A stretch of 64,000 nucleotides of DNA from Nocardioidaceae bacterium (GTDB lineage: Bacteria > Actinomycetota > Actinomycetes > Propionibacteriales > Nocardioidaceae). The first letter of the stretch is position 1; every line of letters begins with the position of its first letter. Shown one piece after another: positions 23,574 to 28,066 of this stretch. The DNA lies in assembly GCA_018672315.1 (NCBI GenBank), contig CP076053.1, positions 3,397,827-3,461,826 of the forward strand. The letters run 5' to 3'. The translations under genes were made by a program, and so were the position numbers. The notes below the pieces were generated by a model. It was given only the letters and a program-made list of their open reading frames with translations, did no database searches and was not told the DNA's origin.

Positions 23574-24734
23574 TCAGACGTCGAGCCGGGAGCGCAGGAA
23601 GTCGCGCATGTAGGGAATGGTGAAGCGCAGGTATCCGCGGCGGCTCGGCTCGACGAGTCCCGCGACGATCAGCCGCGACCGGTAGCGCGAGACGTACCCG
23701 TGGTCCCGGTCGAGCCGCCGCTGCACGTCGGCGATCGAGGACTCGGCCTCGTCGGCGGCCATGGCGGCGAGGAAGCTGCGGTCCTTCTCCGACAGGTCGT
23801 TGACCGCCGGCTCGTGCAGCGCGAACCACGACTCCGAGATCGCCTCTGCCACCCCGACCCGCGCGTGCTCCGTCGTGATCCGCGCACTGCGCGTGTCCTG
23901 CCTCCAGGCCCTGTCCCCCACGACCTGGATGAGGTACGGGTAGCCCAGCGTCGCCTCCGCCATGAGCGCGAGCGCCTCCTCGGAGACCTCGCGGCCCGCG
24001 TCCCGGATCGGCAGACGCAGCGCGTCGCGCGCCGCGACCTCGCTCAGCGGGGCGAGCACGAAGCGGCGCGCGCGACGCAGGAAGGTCGAGACGTCAGCGG
24101 TGAGCAGGTCCTGCACCGCGGCCGGCAGGCCGGCGGCGGCGAACGCGACCGGACGGTCCTCGCGGAAGGCGTGCTGCACCACCGTGGCCAGCTGGGCGAC
24201 CTCCTCACGGGCGGCCCCGGCGTGCACCTCGTCGAGCGTGAGCATGATGCCGGTGCCGTGGTCCTCGAGCGCCTCGGTGAGGGCGTTGAGCTGTGGCCGT
24301 ACGCCCCCTCGGCTCGACGCCGGCGGGTTGTCGATCTGCAGACCACCGAGCCCCGCCGGCAGTGTGATACCTCGCAGCCTGGGCCGGGTGCCCGGCGCGG
24401 GCGCCTGACGCAGCACGTCGGCCACCTCGGGCAGGCCCTCCTCGGCCAGACGCTGGAGCAGCCCCGGGGTCGCGGTCTCGGAGACGACGACCCAGCCGCG
24501 CTCGCGTGCGAGCGCCTCGGCCTCGTTCAGCACCACGGTCTTGCCGATGCCGCGGTTGCCGGTGATGAGCGCCGCGCGCCCGGCGGCTCCCGGGCCGCTG
24601 TCGAGCGCGTCGGCGATCTCGTCCAGCACCGCGTCGCGGCCCGTCACCAGCGGCGGGTTGGACCCGAAGGACGGCCGGAAGGGGCTGCGCGACGTCGTAC
24701 GCAGACGGCCCTGCCGTTCATCATCCTTCATCAT
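23574..24734 (-). CDS. AAA+ ATPase with C-terminal winged-helix region
   Basis: A 386-residue P-loop ATPase similar in layout to archaeal-type ATPases and ORC1/Cdc6-like AAA+ proteins. Walker A is TGNRGIGKTVVLNEA near 58-70, Walker B GIMLTLDEVHAG near 162-172, sensor-like VAFAAAGLPAAV follows, and the C-terminus (DVQRRLDRDHGYVSRYRSRLIVAGLVEPSRRGYLRF) reads as a winged helix. It may bind DNA or act in a regulatory or defence complex; no partner gene is obvious. The ATG at 24734 sits inside a set of four phased TGATGAA repeats and has no Shine-Dalgarno; ATG 24731 is the alternative start. Confidence 0.82.
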   Translation of the reverse strand: MMKDDERQGRLRTTSRSPFRPSFGSNPPLVTGRDAVLDEIADALDSGPGAAGRAALITGNRGIGKTVVLNEAEALARERGWVVVSETATPGLLQRLAEEGLPEVADVLRQAPAPGTRPRLRGITLPAGLGGLQIDNPPASSRGGVRPQLNALTEALEDHGTGIMLTLDEVHAGAAREEVAQLATVVQHAFREDRPVAFAAAGLPAAVQDLLTADVSTFLRRARRFVLAPLSEVAARDALRLPIRDAGREVSEEALALMAEATLGYPYLIQVVGDRAWRQDTRSARITTEHARVGVAEAISESWFALHEPAVNDLSEKDRSFLAAMAADEAESSIADVQRRLDRDHGYVSRYRSRLIVAGLVEPSRRGYLRFTIPYMRDFLRSRLDV

Positions 24735-24762
24735 CTGGGCATGCTTTCATCAATCTTCATCA
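24717..24762 (-). repeat. Four phased TGATGAA heptamers over the AAA+ gene start
   Basis: TGATGAA (minus strand) occurs at 24717-24723, 24727-24733, 24746-24752 and 24756-24762. Start-to-start distances are 10, 19 and 10 bases, placing all copies on about one face of the helix. Two copies are upstream of the start codon and two lie in the first codons. This is an operator- or iteron-like layout. Confidence 0.6.
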
Positions 24763-24799
24763 GATGTCGAGGCTGCGCCCCGAGATTCTGCGCCGGCCC

Positions 24800-25561
24800 T
24801 CAGTTCATGACCAAGCCACCGTCGACGACCAGGTTCTGGCCGGTGATCGCGCGAGCCCACGGCGAGAGGAAGAACACGACGGCGTCCGCGAGCTCGTCGG
24901 GCGTGACGACGCGACGCAGCGGCGTGGTGTCGGCGATCAGGTCGAAGACCGCCTCCGGCGTCGCGACGCTGGCATCGGTGGTGCGCAGGAGGCCGCCCGA
25001 GACCATGTTCACGGTGATCTGGTCGGGACCCAGGTCGGCGGCGAACGTACGCGTGAACGACAGCAGAGCCGCCTTCGCGGCGGTGTAGTCGTGGTAGGGC
25101 ACCACCGGGTTCTGCAGCAGGTTGGTGCCGATGTTGACCACACGGCCGTCGCCGGAGGTCCGCAAGCCCGGCAGACAGGCCCGCACCGTGTTCAGGGCGC
25201 CGCGGAGACTTCCTGCCAGCTGCGACTCGAAGGCGGGCCAGTCGATGACGTCGGCGGTAGCTCGGTCGTCCCCGTCGAAGGAGAAGTCGGCGAGCGCGTT
25301 GTTGACGACGGTGTCCACGCGGCTCCCGAGCTGAGCTTCGGCCCGCTCCACCATGCTGGCGACCTGCTCGCGGTCGGTCACATCGGCCCGCACGGCGACG
25401 GCGCGGTCGCCCAGCTCGCCTGCCAGATCCTCCGCGGTCTCGCGGCTGCGGCGGTAGTTGACGACGACCCGGGCGCCCTCGCGCGCGACGGCGCGGGCGA
25501 TGGCCCGGCCCAGTCCGCGACCGGCGCCGGTCACCAGCACGGTTCGGTCAGACAGCTGCAT
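24800..25561 (-). CDS. SDR-family oxidoreductase at the end of the thiamine operon
   Basis: A 253-residue short-chain dehydrogenase. Motifs are TVLVTGAGRGLGRAIA (NADP-type glycine motif), VVNNAL, the active-site YHDYTAAKAALLSF with Tyr and Lys, and C-terminal GQNLVVDGGLVMN. The usual active-site Ser, 13 residues before the Tyr, is a Thr (NIGTNLL). It resembles FabG-type 3-oxoacyl reductases. The ATG at 25561 overlaps the end of thiD by 14 bases, so it is the last gene of thiM-thiE-thiD-SDR and presumably shares riboswitch control. A link to thiamine is suggested only by position. Confidence 0.88.
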   Translation of the reverse strand: MQLSDRTVLVTGAGRGLGRAIARAVAREGARVVVNYRRSRETAEDLAGELGDRAVAVRADVTDREQVASMVERAEAQLGSRVDTVVNNALADFSFDGDDRATADVIDWPAFESQLAGSLRGALNTVRACLPGLRTSGDGRVVNIGTNLLQNPVVPYHDYTAAKAALLSFTRTFAADLGPDQITVNMVSGGLLRTTDASVATPEAVFDLIADTTPLRRVVTPDELADAVVFFLSPWARAITGQNLVVDGGLVMN

Positions 25562-26408
25562 TCGCGCGGCTCCCTCGGGAGGTCGGGTCGAGCTCGTACA
25601 GATGGTGGACGGGCCCGTTTCCCCGGCCGACGTGCAGCCGGTCGGCGCGCGCGATCGCCTCGGCGAGCCACTGCTTGGTGCGTCGCAGCGCCTCAGGCCA
25701 CGAACCGTCGACGACGCGACGGGTGGCCATGGCCGAGGACAGCGAGCAGCCCGTGCCGTGGGTGTTGCGTGTGCGGACGCGTCGACCCTCGACCTCGACG
25801 ATCTCGCCGGGAAGGGCGCCCCGCGCGTCGACCAGGGCGTCCGGACAGTCGGCGCCGTCGAGGTGACCGCCCTTGGCGAGCACGACCGTCCCCGTCGAGG
25901 AGGAGAGCGCCCGGGCCTGGTCGAGAGCGAGTGCCCACGTCGTGGCCACGGGTGCGTCGATGAGCACGGCGAGCTCGTTGAGATTCGGCGTGACGAGATC
26001 GGCGAGAGGCACCAGGCCCCGCAGCGCCTCCTCGGCGGCGGCATCGAGCAGCCGGTCGCCGCTGGTGGAGACCATCACCGGGTCGAGGACGACCACGGGG
26101 GGCTGCGCGCTCCCCAGCCATGTCCGCACCTCGTCGACGGTCTCCTCGTTGCCGAGCATCCCGATTTTCACGGCATCGATGTCGACGTCGTCGCTGACGG
26201 CATCGAGCTGCTCGCGCAGGAAAGCCGGCGGCGGGGTGTGCACGCTGCATACGCCCCTCGTGTTCTGCGCGACGAGCGCGGTGACCACCGCCATGCCGTA
26301 GCCGCCGTTGGCTCCGATGCTCTTGAGGTCCGCCTGGATTCCGGCACCACCCGTGGGGTCCGTGCCCGCGATGCTCAGGACCCGGGGCACCCGTCCGTCG
26401 TCAGCCAC
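25548..26408 (-). CDS. thiD: Hydroxymethylpyrimidine/phosphomethylpyrimidine kinase
   Basis: A 286-residue ribokinase-fold kinase phosphorylating HMP and HMP-phosphate for thiamine synthesis. Motifs are VLSIAGTDPTGGAGIQADLKSI at the N-terminus, NGGYGMAVVTALVAQNT, VLDPVMVSTSGDRLL, TPNLNELAVL, and the anion-hole/catalytic RTRNTHGTGCSLSSA near 205-220 with the catalytic Asp of typical GxGD replaced in the THGTGCS form common to ThiD. The GTG start at 26408 overlaps the thiE stop by 8 bases. It is the third gene of the riboswitch-led operon. Confidence 0.95.
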   Translation of the reverse strand: MADDGRVPRVLSIAGTDPTGGAGIQADLKSIGANGGYGMAVVTALVAQNTRGVCSVHTPPPAFLREQLDAVSDDVDIDAVKIGMLGNEETVDEVRTWLGSAQPPVVVLDPVMVSTSGDRLLDAAAEEALRGLVPLADLVTPNLNELAVLIDAPVATTWALALDQARALSSSTGTVVLAKGGHLDGADCPDALVDARGALPGEIVEVEGRRVRTRNTHGTGCSLSSAMATRRVVDGSWPEALRRTKQWLAEAIARADRLHVGRGNGPVHHLYELDPTSRGSRANAAV

Positions 26409-27072
26409 GGTCCCACTCCCTCACCAGGCACTCGCACACGGCTCGAGGGTCCTCCGACGCGCAGACCGCCGAGACCACAGCGGCACCGGCGCCGCCCGCC
26501 GCACGGATCCCCGGCAGGTCCGCAGCTCTGATGCCCCCGATCGCCACGCATGGCAGGGAGGTGGCGCGGCAGACCTCGGCGAAGCCCGCGACGCCGAGTG
26601 CCGCAGGAGCGTCGGACTTGGTCGCGGTGGCGCGTATCGTCCCCACCCCGAGGTAGTCGAGCGTGCCCGGTGGCAGGGCCGCTGCCGCAGCGAGCTCCGC
26701 GGCCGTCGAGGCGCTCCACCCCACGATGGCGTGCGACCCCACTACGTCGCGGACGACCACGGGGTCGAGATCGTCCTGTCCCACGTGGACGCCGGCGACC
26801 TCCGCTCCTTGCTCGCGCACCGTGAGGAAGACGTCGACCCGGTCGTTGACGATGAGCAGCGCCCGTCCTCGACAGACCTCGGCTGCCTCGCAGACGAGGT
26901 CGCGGACGCGGGAGGACGGTTCGTGCTTCGCCCGCACCTGCACCGCGGTGACGCCGGCCACGAGCGCTGCACGCACGACGTCGATCGGGCCGCGAGCCGC
27001 ACAGACACCGGTGTCGGCGATCAGGTACGGCCCCGGAGCGAACCGAGGACGAGCGGGTGTCGACGTGCTCAC
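26401..27072 (-). CDS. thiE: Thiamine-phosphate synthase
   Basis: A 223-residue TIM-barrel enzyme joining HMP-PP and thiazole phosphate to give thiamine phosphate. Visible motifs are [15 protein letters not shown] (phosphate/substrate loop), [20 protein letters not shown], and [15 protein letters not shown], corresponding to the family GxxxxTxTK segment, then CVAIGGI. The N-terminus is short and the length is normal. The GTG start at 27072 overlaps the thiM stop by GTGA, so translation is coupled. Confidence 0.95.
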
Positions 27073-27905
27073 CGCAGGACGATCCGCTCGCGCAGCGTCT
27101 CGCCGTCGAGACCGGCCAATGCATCGAGCAGCGATGACGCGAAGCTTCCTGGTCCCGATGCCGTGGCGGCGGCGACCTCCGCCGCCACGGTGTAGGAGGC
27201 CACCGCGGCGACCGTCGCGGACAGGGTGTCGGACTCGACCGCCCGGAACGCAGCGACCACGGCCCCCAGCGCGCATCCCCCACCGGTGACCTGCGTGAGC
27301 CAGGGATGACCGTTGGCTACGCGGGTCGTGCGGTCGCCGTCGGTCACGACGTCCACCGCGCCGGAGACCGCCACGACACCGCCCAGGGTGGTCGCCAGCG
27401 ACACGGCGGCGTCGAGGGACTCCTCGGTGGCCGCCGTGGAGTCCACGCCGCGTCCGCCGTCGGCCGTCCCGGCGACCGCCATCACCTCCGAAGGGTTCCC
27501 GCGCACCACGTCGGGTCCCAGCTCGAGGAGCTGTGCCACCAGCCGGGTCCGGACCGCCAGCGAGCCGACCGCCACGGGGTCCAGCACCCAGGGCGTGCCG
27601 TGGGACCCGGCGCTCCGAGCGGCCTCCACCATGGCGTCGCGCTGCTCGGCGTACGGGGTGCCGACGTTGACGAGCACCGCGTCGGCCACCTGGGCGAACG
27701 GACCGGCCTCCTCAGGGATGTCGACCATCGCGGGCGAGGCACCCACGGCGAGGAGGACGTTGGCGGAGAACGGCATGACGACGCTGTTGGTCAGGCACTG
27801 CACGAGCGGTGACCGGTCGCGTACGCGCTGGAGCACCGCGGCACAGGACGCGACGTCGGGGGCGCGCAGCGCGGTCGCAGGGTCAGATGGCTGGCGGACG
27901 CTCAT
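27069..27905 (-). CDS. thiM: Hydroxyethylthiazole kinase
   Basis: A 278-residue ribokinase-like kinase that salvages the thiazole moiety of thiamine. Features are [27 protein letters not shown] (family N-terminal block), [42 protein letters not shown], and [15 protein letters not shown] with the catalytic Cys. The ATG at 27905 is preferred over ATG 27914 because GAAGGGA lies at a proper distance before it, while it would touch the other. That ribosome binding site adjoins the last strand of the TPP riboswitch. It is the first gene of the operon. Confidence 0.95.
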
Positions 27906-27917
27906 CCGCGACATCCC

Positions 27918-28004
27918 TTCGCTAGTGCGAACTAGAGCAGGTTCGACGGGTGTGATCTCAGCCCGCGCTCGGGCACCCCGTGTCTCGTCGTCGACCGTAG
28001 CGAA
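27918..28004 (-). promoter_or_regulatory. TPP riboswitch (THI element)
   Basis: On the minus strand the conserved blocks appear in order: ACACGGGGTGCCC, GGGCTGAGATCACACCC, GTCGAACCTG and CTAGTTC. They are enclosed by a perfect 7-bp P1 helix, TTCGCTA (28004-27998) with TAGCGAA (27924-27918). Directly after P1 comes GGGATG, so the closing helix adjoins the thiM ribosome binding site and ligand-stabilised P1 would hinder translation. Thiamine pyrophosphate binding is established for this class. Confidence 0.95.
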
Positions 28005-28066
28005 CGGCACCAGCCGGTGGACTCCGTCAGCCCCACCGCGTCGTCACCACCCAGCCCGCGCCCGCG

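Follow-up and report, generated by a model that had tools for sequence, protein, structure and literature searches.

Origin repeats adjoin the genes of the Orc1/Cdc6 initiators. MalT is a STAND regulator, and both MalT and the SARP regulators bind direct repeats just upstream of the −10 element and recruit RNA polymerase. For the ATPases SSO1545 and PABY2304, we know of no operator or DNA target. BldC of Streptomyces is a winged-helix protein that forms cooperative head-to-tail multimers on direct repeats of about 9 bp, present in variable number (PMC5859096). IniR carries an SSO1545-like ATPase domain and is reported to regulate a single operon (PMC5760070). RdfS is an oligomeric winged-helix excisionase that represses its own promoter (PMC11963761).

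Here we describe an ATPase gene with four TGATGAA repeats at its promoter, located in a 64,000-nucleotide stretch of DNA (the window; Table 1). Our main reading, to which we assign a probability of roughly three in four, is that the array is a privately matched self-operator on which the ATPase would assemble and shut its own promoter.

Table 1. Features of the ATPase gene and its repeat array (window coordinates)
Feature	Position	Strand	Basis or remark
AAA_16 / STAND-like ATPase with C-terminal winged helix	23574..24734	−	ORF, Pfam, AlphaFold2; closest folds 2QEN, 2FNA; predicted array binder
Walker A GNRGIGKT, residues 59–66	24537..24560	−	Invariant alignment columns
Predicted recognition helix, residues 345–357	23664..23702	−	AlphaFold2 model; contains Arg350
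Operator copy 1 (TGATGAA), predicted	24756..24762	−	Upstream-most in gene direction; position kept in relatives
Operator copy 2 (TGATGAA), predicted	24746..24752	−	10 bp from copy 1; relatives compared
Operator copy 3 (TGATGAA), predicted	24727..24733	−	19 bp from copy 2; overlaps possible ATG start
Operator copy 4 (TGATGAA), predicted	24717..24723	−	10 bp from copy 3; relatives compared

The ATPase, its predicted fold and its genomic setting

If the ATG at 24734 is the start, the ATPase comprises 386 residues. Pfam matched AAA_16 (1.3e-12; 49.0 bits against a curated cut-off of 32.6); no other domain was matched, and NCBIfam gave no match for the window protein. Both Walker A and Walker B are present: K65, T66 and E169 are invariant and D168 is nearly invariant among 84 sequences. 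The preliminary description had noted a winged-helix-like C-terminus, and the AlphaFold2 model, built on an alignment of 84 homologues (pLDDT 90.7, pTM 0.87), agrees with it, predicting a winged helix at residues 316–371 with R350 in the last helix before the wing. The chain ends 15 residues past the wing, and STAND-type C-terminal sensor or repeat domains are absent.

Comparison of the model by VIA-align placed the archaeal ATPases 2QEN (Z 24.3 over 314 residues) and 2FNA (Z 24.2 over 309 residues) first, followed by Aeropyrum ORC2 and then by NLR and CED-4 cores (Z about 18–20); the Orc folds scored below the two archaeal ATPases (1W5T, Z 21.6; 2QBY, Z 17.1). The model thereby suggests an SSO1545-like or STAND fold shared over the ATPase, lid and winged helix. 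A PADLOC search for anti-phage defence gave only two CARF-model matches (E 0.012 and 0.015), both to the C-terminal part alone, and the annotations of homologues carry no function ('ATP-binding protein', 'AAA family ATPase', 'hypothetical protein').

Upstream of the ATPase, a 65-nt gap is followed by an open frame with its stop at 24800 that, from its sequence, reads as a short-chain dehydrogenase. Three open frames on the minus strand at 25548–28010 of the window are presumably of the ThiD, ThiE and ThiM kinds (thiamine), so that the gene order on this strand runs from thiamine-like frames through the dehydrogenase-like gene to the ATPase. In 38 other genomes, the dehydrogenase-like neighbour had no match at 1e-60 and the neighbourhood was not found; a methyltransferase-like neighbour had matches in 11 of the 38.

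A relative of the ATPase was also present in 95 plasmid records and in one phage record, and an unnamed PHROG was matched. At four plasmid loci, the 'ATP-binding protein' has variable genes around it, and two of these loci have transposase genes nearby. Some plasmid relatives fall outside Actinomycetota (Sphingobium, Sphingomonas, Polymorphobacter, Azospirillum and others). Five copies look broken, with an internal stop or only the C-terminal part matched (L046, L052, L221, L225 and L229), which would fit a gene that is often gained and lost.

Repeat arrays in the window and across the family

The four TGATGAA copies with steps of 10, 19 and 10 bases, as first described, were confirmed, and the array at the window promoter (L001) scored above all 60 dinucleotide shuffles. 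It spans 46 bp in total and belongs to the promoter region of the ATPase gene. A search of the whole 3.6-Mb genome for clustered TGATGAA, proposed as a check in the preliminary description, found the TGATGAANNNTGATGAA doublet with at most one mismatch twice, both times only at the array; at two mismatches, three additional places appeared, against one for a reversed control. TGATGAA itself occurs 13 times in the window, against 0.85 expected from shuffles; the nine copies outside the array are scattered over positions 1121–51403, not in arrays, and are perhaps Asp-Glu codon pairs.

Two details of the preliminary description required adjustment. Two copies fall inside the coding start, as it states, only when translation begins at the ATG at 24734. 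The window gene has just two canonical in-frame starts, both of them ATGs that overlap copy 3, and an alternative CTG lies six codons ahead of the SPF motif; each of the seven close relatives has an in-frame ATG or GTG beyond the last copy, 3–5 codons ahead of the conserved SPF. Because the in-frame start follows the last copy in these seven relatives, the repeats there are probably not coding, and the explanation by codon usage that the description had set as a check fails. Its assignment of the copies to one helix face is only roughly right, since 9-bp and 10-bp steps occur about equally often in the family and successive copies therefore drift round the helix.

Within the close clade formed by the window gene and these relatives, conservation of spacing, another of the proposed checks, was found in six of the eight members: five have 10/19/10 (L001, L002, L034, L035 and L036) and one has 10/20/10 (L032). 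In L033 the second copy is degenerate, and L031 has the downstream pair without the upstream pair.

A wider set of homologues was assembled from several searches. Among genomes of the same family, 200 of 341 had a match at E ≤ 1e-15, counting distant subfamilies; across the class, 12 of 394 genomes matched a relative used as query at E ≤ 1e-30; and the best 80 of at least 571 confirmed candidates formed the related-locus sample. By their titles, those 80 loci are mostly from Actinomycetota (Nocardioides, Rhodococcus, Arthrobacter, Bifidobacterium, Corynebacterium, Rothia, Brevibacterium and others). The array test covered 208 loci (L001–L115 and L137–L229), 204 of them with a usable upstream stretch, thinned to 122 non-redundant homologues. 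L116–L136, which were pattern matches and larger copies of loci already included, were excluded; duplicate genomes were thinned (L137–L139, for example, equal L031, L036 and L035); and for L044, L172 and L175 the upstream stretch was set by a profile match instead of the NPF motif.

The upstream DNA of these homologues contains recurrent short words, one turn apart, before the start, and the word varies by lineage (TGATGAA, CTATGAA, CTAAA, TATAAA, ACACAA and GTGAAA were seen). Significant tandem arrays (p ≤ 0.05, 60 dinucleotide shuffles each) were detected in 65 of the 122 homologues, 52 of which beat every shuffle, compared with 5 of 122 control stretches randomly sampled among 386 intergenic upstream regions at these loci. 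Recurrence of 6-mers by lag, scanned from 3 to 60 with no preset step, peaked at lag 10 (30 of 63 promoters versus 11 of 189 control stretches). The window array is thus one member of a family-wide feature.

The homologues were divided by recognition-helix motif into a direct and a distant, dyad-type branch. Direct arrays reached p ≤ 0.05 in 53 of the 79 direct-branch genes; across 51 direct-branch loci with 2–7 copies, the 130 steps, in a search that permitted only steps of 9–11, 18–21 and 28–31, comprised 58 of 10 bp, 55 of 9 bp and 17 others. The distant branch tends to a 2+2 dyad with two tandem half-sites on each side (L067, for example), and a dyad with 22-bp arms at p ≤ 0.05 was found in 20 of its 43 members versus 3 of the 79 in the direct branch. 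The automatic test gave no significant direct array in 57 of the 122 homologues, 31 of them among the 43 dyad-type members and 26 among the 79 direct-branch genes. No array was visible in the upstream DNA of some loci, such as L163, L168, L169 and L229, the last an Agrococcus copy. Arrays in the opposite orientation were seen in Bifidobacteriaceae (L191, L196, L203 and L216), with TTTTATA on the coding strand and TATAAAA on the other, and in Arthrobacter-like loci (L195, L201 and L202), with TTTCAC on the coding strand and GTGAAA on the other.

The probable reader of the array and the sign of regulation

Across eight genomes, the TGATGAA doublet with at most one mismatch occurred 15 times, 14 of them at the ATPase's own promoter, and control matches numbered 0; the fifteenth (G022) lies away from the ATPase in a stretch that is open in one frame for about 299 codons. 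Paralogues in the same genome mostly differ in word, and the word stays constant within a subfamily from genome to genome: operators of the GCATACACTTCGTTACACAAG type occur at seven loci in six genomes alongside other operators, and the paralogue at 1369604 in the window genome has a CTAG-type array. An exception is a pair of Bifidobacterium scaligerum paralogues that share a TTTTATA-like word. The window-genome paralogue, the more distant NPYAPG-type relative L243 (G000:C1:1369604-1370779), also has a TANNNT hexamer just before its GTG start, and L243-like relatives are present in many genomes of the family and order.

The word is also associated with a residue of the recognition helix. In 72 of the 84 alignment rows (12 rows of other subfamilies were excluded), 10 of the 13 proteins with Arg or Lys at position 350 had a TGAA word, compared with 2 of 59 with other residues (Fisher 3e-8). 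The exceptions are L213 (Lys) and L214 (Arg), which have no TGAA word; L141 (Arg), whose copies alternate between TGAC and TGAA and which fails the rule; and L004 (Gln) and L192 (Val), which have a TGAA word without Arg or Lys. Asn occupies position 350 in all three labelled ACACA-type loci. When 322 columns were ranked on 49 of 55 labelled loci (six unclear words were dropped; labels required array p ≤ 0.034 and score ≥ 360), position 350 took second place for excess information about word class and fifth for z-score. Both lists were led by residues outside the winged helix, A228 for excess information and S17 for z-score, which indicates that ancestry contributes to the association. A tree that excluded the winged helix gave five changes of the residue and six of the word, with three independent pairs on well-supported branches, so the sign test cannot reach 0.05. 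We therefore describe this as an association in sequence data, not proof of a code. Taken together, the uniqueness of the doublet, the paralogue words and the residue–word association point to the ATPase itself as the probable binder of the array.

The preliminary description had proposed that the ATPase binds the repeats, giving either autoregulation or an origin-like complex; self-binding is the best reading of this covariation, and inference gives good support to the autoregulation half. Over half of the relatives examined have a similarly spaced array, and its word seems to track the reading head of the protein; this suggests that every such ATPase controls its own gene. In the mechanism we propose, the C-terminal winged helix of each ATPase protomer would dock on one word of the array, and neighbouring protomers would stack head to tail every 9–10 bp along the DNA. 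Assembly over the promoter and start region would block the ATPase's own promoter, and the level of ATPase would stay at a set point until a signal, or the nucleotide state of the ATPase, dissolves the assembly. Binding, cooperativity, repression over activation and nucleotide control are each what we infer.

The anatomy of the promoters bears on the sign of this regulation. At 117 loci, TANNNT stood 12, 13 and 14 nt before the nearest in-frame start 23, 17 and 3 times, respectively, where about 0.7 is expected per position; this spacing suggests the −10 element of a leaderless transcript, many homologues then being transcribed without a leader. The median distance from array end to start codon is 19 nt (48 loci, in 4 of which the array overlaps the start), and the array therefore often covers the −35 region. 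In the window clade, the −10-like hexamer, where visible (TAGCAT in L036, TACGAT in L002), sits between the two pairs, in contact with copy 3. At the window gene itself, no sigma-70-type promoter match and no −10-like hexamer were found in 24650–24900; minus-strand folding was no better than shuffles (z 0.52), and Rfam matches were sub-threshold only.

Activation, too, could result from an array on the −35 region, so anatomy does not fix the sign of regulation. On this alternative, which we regard as rather unlikely, the self-operator would serve positive autoregulation: the ATPase, bound to direct repeats just upstream of −10, would recruit RNA polymerase and create a feed-forward switch. The frequent placement of arrays just upstream of −10 (43 TANNNT at 12–14 nt in the 117 loci, with the median array end given above) speaks for it, as does the STAND-type fold, since the activator IniR was assigned to that class (PMC5760070). 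However, two of the four copies in the window clade lie at or beyond the likely transcription start, which suits repression, and an ATPase whose own promoter is the only evident site in eight genomes fits negative feedback better.

A second alternative, improbable in our estimation, assigns the array to another host regulator, a BldC- or Xis-like head-to-tail winged-helix protein that silences a family of foreign genes. The binding of BldC head to tail on direct repeats of about 9 bp (PMC5859096) and the 95 plasmid records carrying relatives of the gene accord with such silencing, but one protein could hardly read words that mostly differ among paralogues of the same genome and track the subfamily. 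The difference between paralogue words and their constancy within subfamilies thus make a common host regulator unlikely, and the TGATGAA doublet stands at one gene only, bar one place in one of the eight genomes.

An origin-like or partition complex of array and ATPase, comparable to the archaeal orc1/cdc6 genes beside origins, is very improbable and was not supported. Foldseek, whose first four matches were archaeal Cdc6/Orc proteins, two of the four structures solved with DNA, and the plasmid records are in keeping with it, but VIA-align places 2QEN and 2FNA above Orc, the 46-bp array is short and lies in the promoter region beside promoter-like signals, with −10-like hexamers adjoining arrays, and the genes are mostly on chromosomal contigs. 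No recurrent operon partner was seen among 156 loci (3–8 kb flanks, crude ORF calling), where clusters other than the ATPase reached at most 13 loci and look like shadow ORFs or unrelated genes. Finally, chance or slippage in a GAT-rich coding start, with which the nine further TGATGAA copies in the window, above shuffles, would agree, has next to no likelihood, as the spacing holds in close relatives, whose copies precede the likely start, and recurs with different words in other relatives, and in our view the 65 of 122 arrays against 5 of 122 controls refute it.

Significance and comparison with known systems

A broader proposal, which we advance tentatively and at somewhat under even odds, is that the stripped-down STAND-like ATPases of Actinomycetota are self-labelled protein–DNA pairs. 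The array would co-evolve with the recognition helix, polymerisation would depend on nucleotide, the symmetry of assembly would have switched between head-to-tail on direct arrays and two-by-two dyads in the distant branch, and each protein would read only its own promoter. Private words, if this is true, would provide insulation and allow several paralogues per cell without cross-talk. With many lineages and words, genes that each carry their own DNA target offer a natural data set in which to follow how winged helices shift from one word to another at near-fixed geometry. Genes annotated without function gain a first handle in a predicted DNA target and its geometry, and the protein would serve as a DNA-binding minimal relative of the STAND switch proteins for studying nucleotide control of assembly.

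Autoregulation, tandem arrays and STAND switches are each known; the combination of a lone ATPase with a private, lineage-specific array was not found in the open-licence literature searched, where no title dealt with these lone ATPases or their repeats. SSO1545 (2FNA) and PABY2304 (2QEN) are the closest folds over nearly the whole chain, at only 14% identity. The Orc1/Cdc6 initiators (2QBY, 2V1U and 1W5T) likewise place an AAA+ domain before a DNA-binding winged helix, but the repeats of the ATPase lie in a promoter region, with a varying word and no sign of an origin. IniR differs in its 818 residues, its MalT-like sugar-binding domain, another kind of DNA-binding domain and a separate operon as target (PMC5760070); the window ATPase, by contrast, shows no sensor domain and has its own promoter as its evident site. 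RdfS and Xis differ in having no ATPase domain and a role in excision, and no consensus word was found for RdfS (PMC11963761). The arrays most resemble those of BldC in their repeat step of 9–10 bp (113 of 130 steps, in a search allowing 9–11, 18–21 and 28–31) and in their variable copy number, from 2 to 7. BldC is a MerR-like protein of 68 residues that has many targets and a single consensus (PMC5859096), whereas the AAA+ ATPase falls outside this family of small, single-domain MerR-like proteins, with 386 residues, one evident target and a word that varies.
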